NCBI GenBank assembly: GCA_015494035.1
Contig: WGBZ01000029.1
Span: forward strand, 1 to 15,586
Length of the DNA stretch: 15,586 nt
DNA from: Lysobacterales bacterium
GTDB taxonomy: Bacteria > Pseudomonadota > Gammaproteobacteria > Xanthomonadales > Marinicellaceae
Reading direction: 5' to 3'
How positions within the stretch are numbered: position 1 is the first letter of the stretch; each line of letters begins with the position of its first letter. A program made the position numbers and the translations under genes. The notes below the pieces were generated by a model. That model did not search any database and was not told where the DNA came from. It was given only the letters and a program-made list of their open reading frames with translations. Below, in pieces: positions 8,573-15,586 of this stretch.

Positions 8573-9232
8573 TCAATAGCGGGGCGCGGCACGCAGGCGG
8601 CATTTTTCCATGGCCTGCAAGGCCGCGGCCTGTTGTTCGGACAAGCCTTGCTGCTCGGCCGCCAGCGCCGCAATTTGCCAGCTTTGGGCGCATAACTGAC
8701 CCACCGGAGGGCCGCTGATGGCGGCTTTTCGCGCCCAGGTCAGCGCGTCCCCGTATTGACCCTGGGCCAGGTAGAACTCGGCCAGTTTTTGCATCACCAG
8801 TGGCGAGTCTGGTTGCAAGGTCAGCGCGCGCAACAGCAGCTTGCCCGCTTTGCGAGGCTGATCGTGAGCCTGGGCCATTTCTGCCTGGGTGAGCAGGGAT
8901 TTGATGGCCGGTGGCGTCAAGGGCACCACATGGATCAGGGAGTCTTCGCCCGTGTGTTCATCAACCACCGGCGCGGGCTTGCGCGCCGTCTGTTGACAGG
9001 CACTGATTGCAAGGGCGATTAGCACCGGCCAGAGCAAACGTGAATGGTTAGGGAACCTTTGATTGAATCGTGATACGGTATCTTGTGGCATAAAATCGCC
9101 CATTTCCGCGTTGCAAACCTTCGCAATAGCCTTGCTATTACGTGCGGTTTGCGCCTTGAACTGAACAATTTTACACGCCAATCTGTTCGCGTCAGATTCA
9201 ATCAGGGCTTCCTTAGGCAGGGGCGATTTCAT
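8573..9232 (-). CDS. TPR lipoprotein with a MITE insertion in its signal-peptide region
   Basis: The 219-codon frame begins at ATG 9232. Its hydrophobic stretch and lipobox (LLWPVLIALAISAC, lipid Cys at residue 79) come unusually late, because residues 6-60 are encoded by the repeat element at 9051-9213 plus one TA. Deleting that 165-bp segment gives MKSPLPNHSRLLWPVLIALA then ISAC, a textbook lipoprotein signal, so the ancestral product was probably 164 aa. Today, translation may start at ATG 9091 inside the element (172 aa, lipid Cys at 32), which would leave a usable 18-residue n-region. The mature part holds about two TPR-like helical repeats (QAEMAQAHDQPRKAGKLLLR, then LAEFYLAQGQYGDALTWARK), suggesting a protein-protein adaptor in the periplasm, anchored in a membrane. 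It is followed by yoaA on the same strand. Its partner is unknown. Confidence 0.8.
   Translation of the reverse strand: MKSPLPKEALIESDANRLACKIVQFKAQTARNSKAIAKVCNAEMGDFMPQDTVSRFNQRFPNHSRLLWPVLIALAISACQQTARKPAPVVDEHTGEDSLIHVVPLTPPAIKSLLTQAEMAQAHDQPRKAGKLLLRALTLQPDSPLVMQKLAEFYLAQGQYGDALTWARKAAISGPPVGQLCAQSWQIAALAAEQQGLSEQQAAALQAMEKCRLRAAPRY
9051..9213 (-). mobile_element. MITE-like element, copy 1 (inside the lipoprotein gene)
   Basis: A 163-bp non-autonomous element without its own gene. Read on the minus strand it starts AGGAAGCCCTGATTGAATC, and its other end, reverse-complemented, is GGGAACCTTTGATTGAATC, so the terminal inverted repeats match at 15 of 19 positions. It is flanked by TA at 9049-9050 and TA at 9214-9215, the target duplication expected of IS630/Tc1-type transposases. 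The centre is also palindromic: GCAAACC--GCAC pairs with GTGCGAAGGTTTGC around AATAGC/GCTATT, so the whole element can fold into a long hairpin. About 88% identical to the copy at 13253-13416 (19 differences, hand count). It has no stop codon in the lipoprotein frame. Confidence 0.85.
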
Positions 9233-9240
9233 AAGCGCAA

Positions 9241-9268
9241 ATTATAAACGCTTTATATCCACTGACGA
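9241..9268 (-). promoter_or_regulatory. Strong sigma-70-like promoter of the lipoprotein-yoaA unit
   Basis: A perfect TATAAT on the minus strand (9241-9246) with TCGTCA (9263-9268) 16 bases upstream. The predicted start of transcription, near 9234, is within about two bases of the ATG at 9232. The message would therefore be almost leaderless if that ATG is used, or would carry the MITE as a structured leader if translation begins at 9091. Confidence 0.6.
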
Positions 9269-10417: not shown

Positions 10418-11368
10418 TTATTCGGGAATGACTTCCACCAGATTGTTACGTGACTGCGCCAGACTGGCGGCCATGGAACCGCCCACAATCAACAGCACGC
10501 CTGCCCAGCCTGTCCACTGGATATGCTCCGGCGCCACCAGCCCCGGGAAAAGAGTGGCCAGCAGATTAATGAAGAAAATCGCCACCACCGGCGAAAGCGC
10601 AATCACCATGCCGGTGCGGGAGGCTTCCCAGTGCTGCAGCGACTCGCTGAACGCACCATAGGCGCCAACGGTATTCAGCCCGGCATACAGCACCGCCCAC
10701 CACTGGCCGGGTGTGAGCTGCATTAGCGCCTGCGGGTGGGCGAATGGCAACAGCAAAAAAGTGGCCAGCAGGTAGATAAAACCCAACATGGTCTGGGGCG
10801 ACAGCTTGCCCAGCAATTTCTTCTGGATTAACGCGTAAATGGCCCAGGCCGCCGCCGCAGCCACCATAATCAACACCCCGGTGCGGTAACGCTCACTGGC
10901 CAGCGATTGCCACTGGTCGCGATAAAAAACCGCCAGCCCCACCACGATGGCGGCAAAACCCAGCTTCTGCAGCAAACTCATGCGTTCCTTGTAGATTACC
11001 ACCCCGCCGATGACCATCAGCAGGGGCGCCATCTGGATCAGCACCTGCGCATTGCCTGGTGTGGTCAGGTGCAGGCTGACCAGATAGCCCACGTAATTGG
11101 CCACCAGCATCACCGCGGCAATCAGCAACAAAACCCAGCCAGGGCGATCCAGTCGATACAGCTCTTTATGCTTTCCGCTGAACAGCAGGTAAAACCAGGT
11201 CAACACCGCCGCCAGGGCAAATCGGAACCAGGTCAGGGTCCAGGCGTCCAGCGCTTCCAGACCCACTTTCAAGGCCACCGGCAAAGTGGCCCAGAACAGC
11301 ATGGCGGCAGCAGCGAGGGCGAAGCCCAACTGCCACTTGCCGGTTAAATGTTTATCGTGTTTGGCCAT
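10418..11368 (-). CDS. EamA-family (DMT superfamily) membrane transporter
   Basis: 316 aa from the ATG at 11368 (MAKHDKHLTGKWQLGF), with GAGAGA eight bases upstream; the frame extends to 11458 but without a better start. It has about ten hydrophobic helices arranged as two EamA repeats. The first contains FWATLPVALKVGLEALDAWT and the end-of-repeat signature ILMVIGGVVIYKERMSLLQKLG-like segment (seen as PLLMVIGGVVIYKERMSLLQ). The second starts near YRTGVLIMVAAAAAWAIYAL and ends ASLAQSRNNLVEVIPE. Family members export amino acids, other metabolites or drugs across the inner membrane; the substrate cannot be predicted here. It is divergent from the repetitive lipoprotein gene at 11525, with a 156-base shared upstream region. 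Confidence 0.9.
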   Translation of the reverse strand: MAKHDKHLTGKWQLGFALAAAAMLFWATLPVALKVGLEALDAWTLTWFRFALAAVLTWFYLLFSGKHKELYRLDRPGWVLLLIAAVMLVANYVGYLVSLHLTTPGNAQVLIQMAPLLMVIGGVVIYKERMSLLQKLGFAAIVVGLAVFYRDQWQSLASERYRTGVLIMVAAAAAWAIYALIQKKLLGKLSPQTMLGFIYLLATFLLLPFAHPQALMQLTPGQWWAVLYAGLNTVGAYGAFSESLQHWEASRTGMVIALSPVVAIFFINLLATLFPGLVAPEHIQWTGWAGVLLIVGGSMAASLAQSRNNLVEVIPE

Positions 11369-11524
11369 GCGGTTTTCTCTCTGTGCCCGGAAAAGCCGCC
11401 TCAGCGGGGACGGCCAAAAGCGGATTTTACTCCCTTGGCAGGCCGCTGGCGATGCCATTCAGCTTTAATTCAGTCACACCGGCATAGGATAGGGGCATCG
11501 AAAACCGTAAACGGCGAGGTTGCC

Positions 11525-13264
11525 ATGAAAAATTTTCTTTTGTTGCTGACTGTTCTCAGCGCCACCAGTTGCGCCCAAAGCACCTATCGCTATGGCGATG
11601 ATTATGGCGACGACTACCGCGACCGGGGCGGCTATGCCCGTTATGAACACCGTTATGGCACCGATAGTTATTACGATGATTATGACGACGACTATTACGA
11701 TGATTATGGCGACGACTATTACGTTGAATATGACGACGACTACGATGGCAGCGGGTACGCAGAAGCGTTCAGCGACATTGACGTTGACTTTAACCTGAGC
11801 CTGAACTGGAACGCCTTTCCCGATCGCTACGGGATCGCCTATGGCGCAGCCATTAACGGCCCCTATCGTTACCCACGGGTGGGATTTTACTACCGGCACA
11901 ACTGGTACCCCAGCGCCTGGTGGGGCAGTTACTCGGCCTTTGATCCCTGGTACAGCGATTACTATTACCGCCACCGCGGTTCCCACCTGTCGCTGAGCTT
12001 CAATTTCTACGACTTTGATGATGACTGGGATGACCCCTGGTTTGATGCCGGCTGGGGTTATGCCCTGGGCTACAACTGGTTCCGCCCGGCCTATGGCTGG
12101 AACCCGTGGCGGCGCCACCACAACCGCTGGTACAGCTCCTGGTACGACCCGTATTACGCCCCGGGCTATGGCGGCTATTATGGTTATGGATACGGTTATG
12201 GGGGCAACCACCACCGCTATGGCAGACACGGCGGCAGTCAGTGGGTGGTTGGCCCACACTTCACGCCAATCTATCGGGGTAGCTACGATAATTACCGTAA
12301 CCACCGCCGCACAGACCACATTGACACGCGCAGCGAAGCGGCACGTCTGGCGGCCCAGCGGCCTTATCGTCACAACAGCGGCTATTCGCATGGCCGCATC
12401 ACCGGCACCACTCAACACAACCGCCGTTACACGCGCCACGACAACCCGCGTAACGTGGCCACGCGCCAGTACAAACGCCCCTATGAACGCCAGCGCAGCA
12501 CCCATAGCACGCACCGTTACGACCGCGTACCAGCCAGCAACCAGCCATTTACCGCCAACCGTGGCACCGTGTCACGACGCCATAACGGCCACCCGGGCAC
12601 TGCTATCTCCAGCAATCGCCTGAACACAAACCGCCACAACAACCGGCTCGGTCACGGCTCGGCAACGCGCTATAACCACACCAGCGGCTACCAGCAGCCG
12701 GCGCACAAACCCCGTGCGACCACTACAGCACGCGCCAAACCGCTGCCAAGGCATACCAACCGGCCTGTCAACCAAACCCGCACCGAAACGCGCCACCGGG
12801 CAACGGGCAGCGAGCCACGCAGGCAACAGAACATGGCCAGAAACAAGCCCCTGATCACCCACATCAATCGCTATCGTTCGCACACACGCCAGCGCCCACA
12901 ACAGCGCAGCAGCAATCACTATCGGCCCCAAAAAGCACCAGCGCACCGGCCAACAGCGGTTCGTCACAGTGCGTATCGCCCGACGCAACAGCACGCACCG
13001 GTACAGCCACGCCGCTTGGCGCCACGTCCGGCTTCACAACGGCCCATCCCCGTCAATCAGCAGCACAGGCAGCGGCCCATGAGTCAGCTGAACTTGCGTC
13101 AGCGGAACATGAATCAGCGGAGTCAGCGCGCTAATGGGGGTTTCTCCCGGCCAGCCCATAAACCGGCATCCCGGCCGGCCCGCCAGGCACCGGCGAGCCA
13201 CTCTGGCACGCACAAAAAGAAGGCCGGAACCCCGGCCCGGGAGCAGCTGCGAGGGAAGCTCTGA
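11525..13264 (+). CDS. Charge-segregated low-complexity lipoprotein or exported protein
   Basis: 579 aa from the ATG at 11525, with GAGG six bases upstream. MKNFLLLLTVLSATSCAQS is a signal peptide with a probable, slightly atypical lipobox (ATSC, Cys16). Three blocks follow. Residues 19-77 are almost all Tyr, Asp, Gly and Glu (YRYGDDYGDDY, DDYDDDYYDDYGDDYY). Residues 78-237 are very rich in Trp, Tyr, Phe and Gly. Residues 239-579 are basic (Arg, His, Lys) with Gln, Asn, Thr and Pro, and contain very few acidic residues. Nothing in it resembles an enzyme. Opposite charges within one chain suggest self-association or binding of polyanions, but this is inference. The last codons (GKL) and the TGA lie inside the repeat element at 13253-13416, so the C-terminus has probably been altered by insertion. 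No homologous family could be named. Confidence 0.75.
   Translation: MKNFLLLLTVLSATSCAQSTYRYGDDYGDDYRDRGGYARYEHRYGTDSYYDDYDDDYYDDYGDDYYVEYDDDYDGSGYAEAFSDIDVDFNLSLNWNAFPDRYGIAYGAAINGPYRYPRVGFYYRHNWYPSAWWGSYSAFDPWYSDYYYRHRGSHLSLSFNFYDFDDDWDDPWFDAGWGYALGYNWFRPAYGWNPWRRHHNRWYSSWYDPYYAPGYGGYYGYGYGYGGNHHRYGRHGGSQWVVGPHFTPIYRGSYDNYRNHRRTDHIDTRSEAARLAAQRPYRHNSGYSHGRITGTTQHNRRYTRHDNPRNVATRQYKRPYERQRSTHSTHRYDRVPASNQPFTANRGTVSRRHNGHPGTAISSNRLNTNRHNNRLGHGSATRYNHTSGYQQPAHKPRATTTARAKPLPRHTNRPVNQTRTETRHRATGSEPRRQQNMARNKPLITHINRYRSHTRQRPQQRSSNHYRPQKAPAHRPTAVRHSAYRPTQQHAPVQPRRLAPRPASQRPIPVNQQHRQRPMSQLNLRQRNMNQRSQRANGGFSRPAHKPASRPARQAPASHSGTHKKKAGTPAREQLRGKL
11675..11743 (+). repeat. Three tandem imperfect 24-bp units encoding Asp/Tyr repeats
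   Basis: Units begin at 11675, 11699 and 11723 and encode DDYDDDYY, DDYGDDYY and VEYDDDY. The first two differ at one base; the third is more divergent. A related unit occurs once at 11597-11617. This suggests recent expansion of the acidic block by slippage or unequal exchange. Confidence 0.75.
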
Positions 13265-13416
13265 TTGAATCTGGCGCGAGCGGATTGAAGTGTAAAATTG
13301 TTCAGTTCAAGGCGCAAACCGCACGTAATAGCCAGGCTAGTGCGAAGGTTTGCAACGTCCGAAATGGACGATTTTACGCCGCAAGATGCCGTGTCACGAC
13401 TCAATCAGAGCTTCCC
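13253..13416 (+). mobile_element. MITE-like element, copy 2 (at the 3' end of the lipoprotein gene)
   Basis: 164 bp. The left end GGGAAGCTCTGATTGAATC and the reverse complement of the right end match at 18 of 19 positions. The core contains TAGCCAGGCTA, a perfect palindrome, nested in GCAAACC/GGTTTGC and GTAAAAT/ATTTTAC inverted repeats, so it can fold along its whole length. A core of 43 bases, from GTGTAAAATTG to GTAATAGC, is identical to copy 1. Flanking dinucleotides are GA and AA, so no clean TA duplication remains. The left end carries the stop codon (TGA 13262-13264) of the preceding gene. It may also act as a terminator-like hairpin. Confidence 0.85.
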
Positions 13417-15461: not shown

Positions 15462-15586
15462 TGGCAACAACGGGCTTTTATTGCCACCACAAAACACCGG
15501 TCGGCACCCTGTTGCTGGCCGGTGATGGCAAAACCTTGTGGCGCATCGCCTTTTCCGATCCGGCTACCGGCCAGCAACAGGGTGCC
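15461..15586 (+). CDS. Methylated-DNA-[protein]-cysteine S-methyltransferase (Ogt type), 5' fragment
   Basis: 42 codons run off the window. The peptide MATTGFYCHHKTPVGTLLLA, then GDGKTLWRIAF, matches the N-terminal ribonuclease-H-like domain of Ogt/MGMT proteins (Y-x-TPvGtLLLAgDg-x-L-x-x-I-x-F), which repair O6-alkylguanine by transferring the alkyl group to a cysteine. The active-site PCHRV motif lies beyond the edge. The start overlaps the peptidase stop by one base. The last seven codons lie in a stretch that is an exact inverted copy of earlier sequence, so the residues after about position 35 may be artefactual. Confidence 0.7.
   Translation, partial: MATTGFYCHHKTPVGTLLLAGDGKTLWRIAFSDPATGQQQGA
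15503..15586. repeat. Perfect 21-bp inverted repeat ending exactly at the window edge
   Basis: GGCACCCTGTTGCTGGCCGG plus one T at 15503-15523 is the exact reverse complement of the last 21 bases (15566-15586), with 42 bases between. Pairing stops at the inner side. The outer arm ends at the last base of the window. This fits a fold-back chimera or an assembly-graph break better than a biological hairpin. Confidence 0.9.

Follow-up and report, generated by a model that had tools for sequence, protein, structure and literature searches.

Rickettsia palindromic elements (RPEs) are reported as small (~150 bp) palindromic repeats found in frame in unrelated Rickettsia genes (PMC10969869), the Coxiella elements QMITE1 and QMITE2 as gammaproteobacterial MITEs that reach ~50 copies per family and strain and at times lie in frame within ORFs (PMC5896051), and IS5 as generating a 4-bp YTAR target duplication (PMC10359306). 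In this study, a MITE was identified near the 5' end of a gammaproteobacterial lipoprotein gene, and the overall evidence suggests, with a probability of about 80%, that this element, which has an IS5-like YTAR target, entered the gene in frame after the lineage split from that of genome G002.

The window (the whole stretch of 15,586 nucleotides analysed here) is contig C29 of the draft assembly G000, which comprises 2,140,903 bases (2.14 Mb) in 386 contigs and is 88% complete. It contains a gene for a lipoprotein of 219 aa with weak TPR matches (positions 8573 to 9232, minus strand), adjoining a YoaA-type helicase gene. Translation of this ORF revealed no stop anywhere, the element included. 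Codons 1 to 61 encode MKSPLP followed by 55 residues derived from a repeat that was found many times across the genome, and the element thus lies between codons 6 and 62. The native start codon ATG (9230 to 9232, minus strand) begins MKSP in both the window and G002, and MKLPTP in protein P0006. The lipoprotein signal, NHSRLLWPVLIALAISAC, which was recognised by the lipobox rule, has a positively charged n-region, a hydrophobic core, and a lipobox (ISAC) whose Cys is residue 79 (codon 8996 to 8998, minus strand) and was retained in all six aligned relatives. The hydrophobic core and lipobox are unaltered by the element and only the n-region is lengthened, so that the description of this case in an earlier note on the sequence, as a transposon rewriting an export signal, was not borne out. 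Downstream of the element, 21 synonymous and 3 nonsynonymous changes separate the gene from that of G002 (dN/dS 0.042, calculated with our own script). This part of the protein is under strong constraint averaged over both lineages, a mean that does not date the constraint to the time after the insertion.

The closest relative, G002, carries an uninterrupted gene for a lipoprotein 98% identical to that of the window, with an open frame of 167 codons vs 222 in the window, i.e., 55 fewer. Its product begins MKSPQP-NHSRLLWPVLIALAISAC, joined exactly at the site where the earlier note had predicted that the flanks would rejoin (MKSP.P-NHSR...ISAC). Alignment of the window with G002 contig C143 (15,892 bases) gave 86% identity over 492 nt for the upstream flank, ending ATGAAATCGCCGCAGCCTAA, and 95% over 652 nt for the downstream flank, resuming at CCTAACC; one CTAA is common to both flanks in C143, with no element between them. 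In a protein search, all five database relatives of the lipoprotein (E<=1e-20, 164-180 aa) lacked the 55 residues, as would be expected from the in-frame insertion and gain of 55 residues that had been proposed from the sequence. The two nearest begin MKSPQP and MKLPTP, and the MK.P.P N-terminus of the window lipoprotein was also found in P0005 and P0006. The simplest reading of the empty site would be a gain in the lineage of the window. Along 15 kb of collinear sequence, two full-length elements were found only in the window, two only in G002, and none in both.

The element belongs to subfamily A and spans 161 bp (GGAAGC...GGTTCC, 9052 to 9212, minus strand). It is flanked by a perfect CTAA duplication, read on the minus strand, at 9213 to 9216 on the side of the start codon and at 9048 to 9051 on the far side. 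The ends are complementary at 81% over 21 nt (terminal inverted repeats), and the whole element as RNA forms a single hairpin (-63.1 kcal/mol, z -6.3). A 4-bp target duplication, mostly YTAR, emerged from 64 of the 70 collected copies, with six dropped for a missing flank or unrecognised ends. The flanking 4-mers agreed at position 1 in 56 of 64 copies (shuffle mean 36.9) and at position 4 in 53 of 64 (shuffle mean 29.6), values that none of 2000 shuffles reached in either case. Positions 2 and 3 agreed in 49 copies each and were matched by 26 and 8 of the 2000 shuffles, respectively, because T and A are nearly fixed there; all four positions agreed in 31 of 64 copies. Since the duplication is 4 bp and not 2, the element is 161 bp long, and 161 + 4 = 165 bp corresponds to 55 codons. 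The earlier values of a TA duplication and a 163-bp element were therefore replaced, and the net gain of 165 bp stood.

Two subfamilies were distinguished, A mostly of 161 bp and B mostly of 158 bp. Sampling of 333,891 of the 2,140,903 bases yielded 48 whole or partial matches, 38 of them near full length, and extrapolation from these 48 matches in 334 kb gives ~300 per genome. The end pattern with at most one mismatch matched 216 times, vs 0 for the reversed control, although both ends of an element may have been counted. The element has no transposase of its own: it measures 161 bp, and the longest open frame of its consensus is 55 codons. With its short length, inverted ends, multiple copies, duplicated target, empty sites, and lack of a transposase, it is a non-autonomous palindromic MITE. 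A subfamily-B element nested within a subfamily-A element was observed at locus L164 (7971-8299). A second subfamily-A copy in the window (13254 to 13415, plus strand), with an imperfect duplication (CGAG/CAAG), lies at the 3' end of the ORF at 11348-13264 (plus strand), supplies its last residues GKL, and is absent there in G002. By eye, the C-terminus of this Tyr/Arg-rich ORF has been replaced, ending ..REQLRGKL in the window and continuing ..REHLKERSRYY in G002. Additionally, a perfect 21-nt inverted repeat (15503-15523 and 15566-15586) ends exactly at the contig end and is possibly an assembly fold-back.

Of the six frames in the consensus of 51 subfamily-A copies, a single one is free of stops, KEALIESGASRLSCKIVQFKAQTARNSKAIAKVCNAEMDDFTPQDAVSRFNQSFP, and this is the frame used in the lipoprotein. 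It was kept open in 21 of the 51 copies, with each other frame open in 0-2; at its codon 14, 23 copies have TGT and 21 have TGA. Selection on the inserted peptide was considered and not supported, as genic and other copies match in their fractions of change. Stepwise counting gave synonymous, nonsynonymous, and stop fractions of 0.30, 0.65, and 0.05 among 37 changes in four genic copies, all with open frames and with both "stops" in doubly changed codons, and of 0.27, 0.64, and 0.09 among 478 changes in the 47 other copies. An open frame of 55 codons can arise by chance; for this reason, and because the changes in the frame look neutral, we do not claim that the element has evolved to code.

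The element was also found in frame, in the same orientation and frame, in at least four further genes, each of which was checked against an element-free relative. With the 55 residues as query, scoring covered 150 of the 427 first-look candidates from G000 and 150 of the 232 from G002, so the list of in-frame cases is a lower bound. GspK, a type II secretion pseudopilin, reads MNLTMRHFPA, the 55 residues, and KQNGMVLVLVLW in G000 and G002, and MNFPVRMYSAKQDGMVLVLVLW in G001; P0004 is a third GspK variant bearing the element. Between G000 and G002, dN/dS was 0.79 (8 changes) in the element segment of gspK and 0.054 in the remainder, and the frame of the element has persisted over these 8 substitutions, too few for significance. 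A protein without a family match, named DsrH/TusB-like by eye, reads WLFA-[55]-NESDV in G000 and WLFANEPDV in G002. A phosphopantetheinyl transferase reads SRLP-[55]-KGLSR in G000 and P0003, and SRLPEGLSR in P0010 and P0011. NadD, normally an essential enzyme, contains two tandem elements in G000, one in P0002, and none in G001; P0001-P0003 have no source label and may be proteins of G000 itself. The nadD product at L252 (G000 C383) also ends in REPLIES, contributed by a third element edge at the C-terminus, and a nadD-like sequence at L283 (G002 C67) is apparently broken into pieces over three frames.

Other open frames at elements were not counted, in G000 (C369, C262, C382, C307, C243, C68, C124, C64, and C270) and likewise in G002 (C31, C72, C133, C74, C25, C100, and C17); on visual inspection, these elements precede a plausible start, or the frame around them does not resemble a gene. 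A DUF4105-like gene (G002 C73) was rejected as a signal-peptide case, since comparison with G000 (L280) suggests a native start downstream of the element.

With the lipoprotein included, two of the five insertions (lipoprotein and GspK) lie within an N-terminal export leader that is normally cut off, although the search set out from the lipoprotein itself, so that an independent count gives one in four. By a rough estimate, such leaders account for only a few percent of all coding sequence. A tentative idea, which we consider rather less probable than its negation, is that a transposon that is translated finds shelter in N-terminal export leaders that can be cleaved, in which the segment may be read through and then discarded, leaving the mature protein untouched. 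The residues of the element would be cut off by signal peptidase II in the lipoprotein and by prepilin peptidase in GspK.

Many copies were observed exactly in the stop codons of genes, e.g., in G000 at L168 (953-2176), L193 (6001-7341), and L190 (1962-4160). Among ORFs of at least 120 codons entering an element, the in-phase TAR of the element serves as the stop at 15 of 22 intact edges, and for 16 of 29 ORFs when damaged edges are included. A predicted stop is touched by 10 of the 48 elements; in comparison, of the 261 YTAR sites that are not genic, 39 are stop sites, and a further 481 YTAR sites are genic. These stop-site and gene/intergenic counts rest on crude gene calls. When the YTAR target holds a stop, the stop (TAA/TAG) is regenerated by the duplication. 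Stop-codon targeting as a special mechanism was rejected, because YTAR specificity together with loss of harmful insertions explains the pattern sufficiently.

Regarding distribution, at least 16 element matches were found in G002, from 13 scored of 172 candidates, together with 81 exact end patterns, and neither element matches nor end patterns were found in G001, which belongs to the same genus and is 99% complete. Matches to the core alone (about model positions 45-124) came from a different genus of the same family (L210-L212, G018 and G012), and near full-length relatives of the element from a genome of another family of the order (L209, G057). An exact end-pattern match was not found in viral contigs, and the only match in plasmids was a 48-base core in three Cupriavidus records, with the lipoprotein unmatched.

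Searches with PF01609 in G000 and with PF05598 in five genomes yielded no autonomous copy with the ends of the element, the draft being 88% complete and ISs often falling in gaps. The PF01609 search of G000 led to L206 and L207. The IS5-type transposase of L206 was rejected as a partner, having its own ends (ATAGTGTCGTCACGA..) and a CTAG duplication that differ from those of the MITE; it consists of two overlapping frames and adjoins what remains of a MITE, about 36 bp. L207 was unmatched by the MITE model and lacks such ends. Three PF05598 matches were obtained in the five genomes, and the two loci inspected (L215 and L217) were both without such ends. The only exact match to the end pattern beyond the genus, in G041, was set aside, as there was no MITE-model match in 6.5 kb and no transposase by eye. 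The YTAR duplication points to IS5-type mobilisation, and the ends of the MITE start with GGAAG, as do those of IS5.

Taken together, the MITE inserted at CTAA in codons 6-7, probably after the lineage parted from G002, and the 165 bp of insertion and duplication met the one stop-free frame of the element, adding 55 residues between the start and the hydrophobic core. Translation from 9232, near the 5' end of the mRNA, through the element is predicted to yield a prolipoprotein whose n-region is much extended. Once exported and lipidated, this precursor would lose the extra segment with the signal peptide before Cys79, and the mature lipoprotein would be unchanged. A promoter-like site (TCGTCA-16-TATAAT, 9241 to 9268, minus strand), found by consensus match, has a -10 box that ends 8 nt before ATG 9232, and the TATAAT is conserved in G002 and G001. 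Usual promoter spacing would put the transcription start at or beside this ATG, and a nearly leaderless mRNA would agree with the lack of a ribosome site at that position (predicted energy +0.6 kcal/mol, worse than the median of -2.9 for random 20-mers). The evidence, to which the MK.P.P beginning of P0005 and P0006 also contributes, leans to ATG 9232, which we regard as the probable start of translation.

The alternative, possible yet distinctly less probable, is that the element has provided a new start. The earlier note had offered 9232 or 9091 and omitted ATG 9103; both internal ATGs (9101 to 9103 and 9089 to 9091, minus strand) are in frame and would place the Cys at residue 36 or 32, respectively. 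The resulting signal would have an ordinary length and an n-region containing three Arg, and it would perhaps be translated from an element-born transcript, with the sequence upstream serving only as leader mRNA. ATG 9103 is kept in 50 of 51 copies, whereas at 9091 most copies have ACG (40 of 51) and few have ATG (6 of 51). Their predicted ribosome-site energies (-3.8 and -4.2 kcal/mol, respectively) are slightly better than the random median but far from the best tenth (10th percentile -6.2), and both lie within the 3' arm of the stable hairpin. A weaker promoter-like site within the element (CTGACG-16-TAAAAT, 9168 to 9195, minus strand), also found by consensus match, has a first hexamer special to the lipoprotein copy (1 of 51, with CTGGCG in 44), but the native start region and -10 box are intact. 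The small remaining probability falls to the absence of any product. The lipoprotein gene would then be en route to a pseudogene, with its frame open by luck and the protein no longer exported or made. By crude gene calls, most sampled copies are either intergenic or at the ends of genes, which means that genic insertions are usually lost, and the neutral appearance of changes in the four genic copies is consistent with decay. It is nevertheless unlikely, given that the frame and promoter region are intact, that synonymous changes greatly outnumber nonsynonymous ones relative to G002, and that the GspK insertion is common to G000 and G002 while the rest of gspK is constrained.

A misplaced high-copy repeat is very improbable, although a draft of 386 contigs with about 300 copies of a 161-bp repeat invites such an assembly artefact and two protein searches returned no second, independent record of the element-bearing lipoprotein, the filled allele being that of this one assembly. 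The two flanks are halves of one gene, synteny with G002 holds around them, the CTAA duplication has no mismatch, and the lipoprotein copy has 13 differences from the consensus within its frame, with a nearest genome match of 94% among those listed.

In comparison with known systems, the MITE resembles the Rickettsia RPEs, likened here by description, as a palindromic repeat lying in frame in several unrelated genes (five here), and differs in its organism group, its 4-bp YTAR duplication, and its one family with two subfamilies vs ten RPE families. The enterobacterial RU-1, RU-2, and RU-3 elements (ERIC-type) are likewise reported as small mobile repeats with open frames fusing to genes; they help to form a signal, whereas the present MITE lengthens the n-region of an existing signal with an unchanged core and has an empty allele in a close relative. 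QMITE1 and QMITE2, as reported, differ in size, in their duplications of 2-3 or 7-11 nt, and in their lower copy number. The YTAR duplication is shared with IS5; unlike IS5, the MITE has no transposase inside. No description of this MITE family was met in the portions of the literature that were searched, although one may exist elsewhere. That small palindromic repeats insert in frame is established, and the family, its target, and the verified gene set appear to be new. The geometry is simple: 161 bp + 4 bp = 55 codons, with a single open frame, and a stop-bearing YTAR restores the stop. Coding palindromes are best known from Rickettsia, and the gammaproteobacterial set of five genes with element-free counterparts described here allows testing of whether proteins tolerate or shed a new 55-residue transposon peptide.
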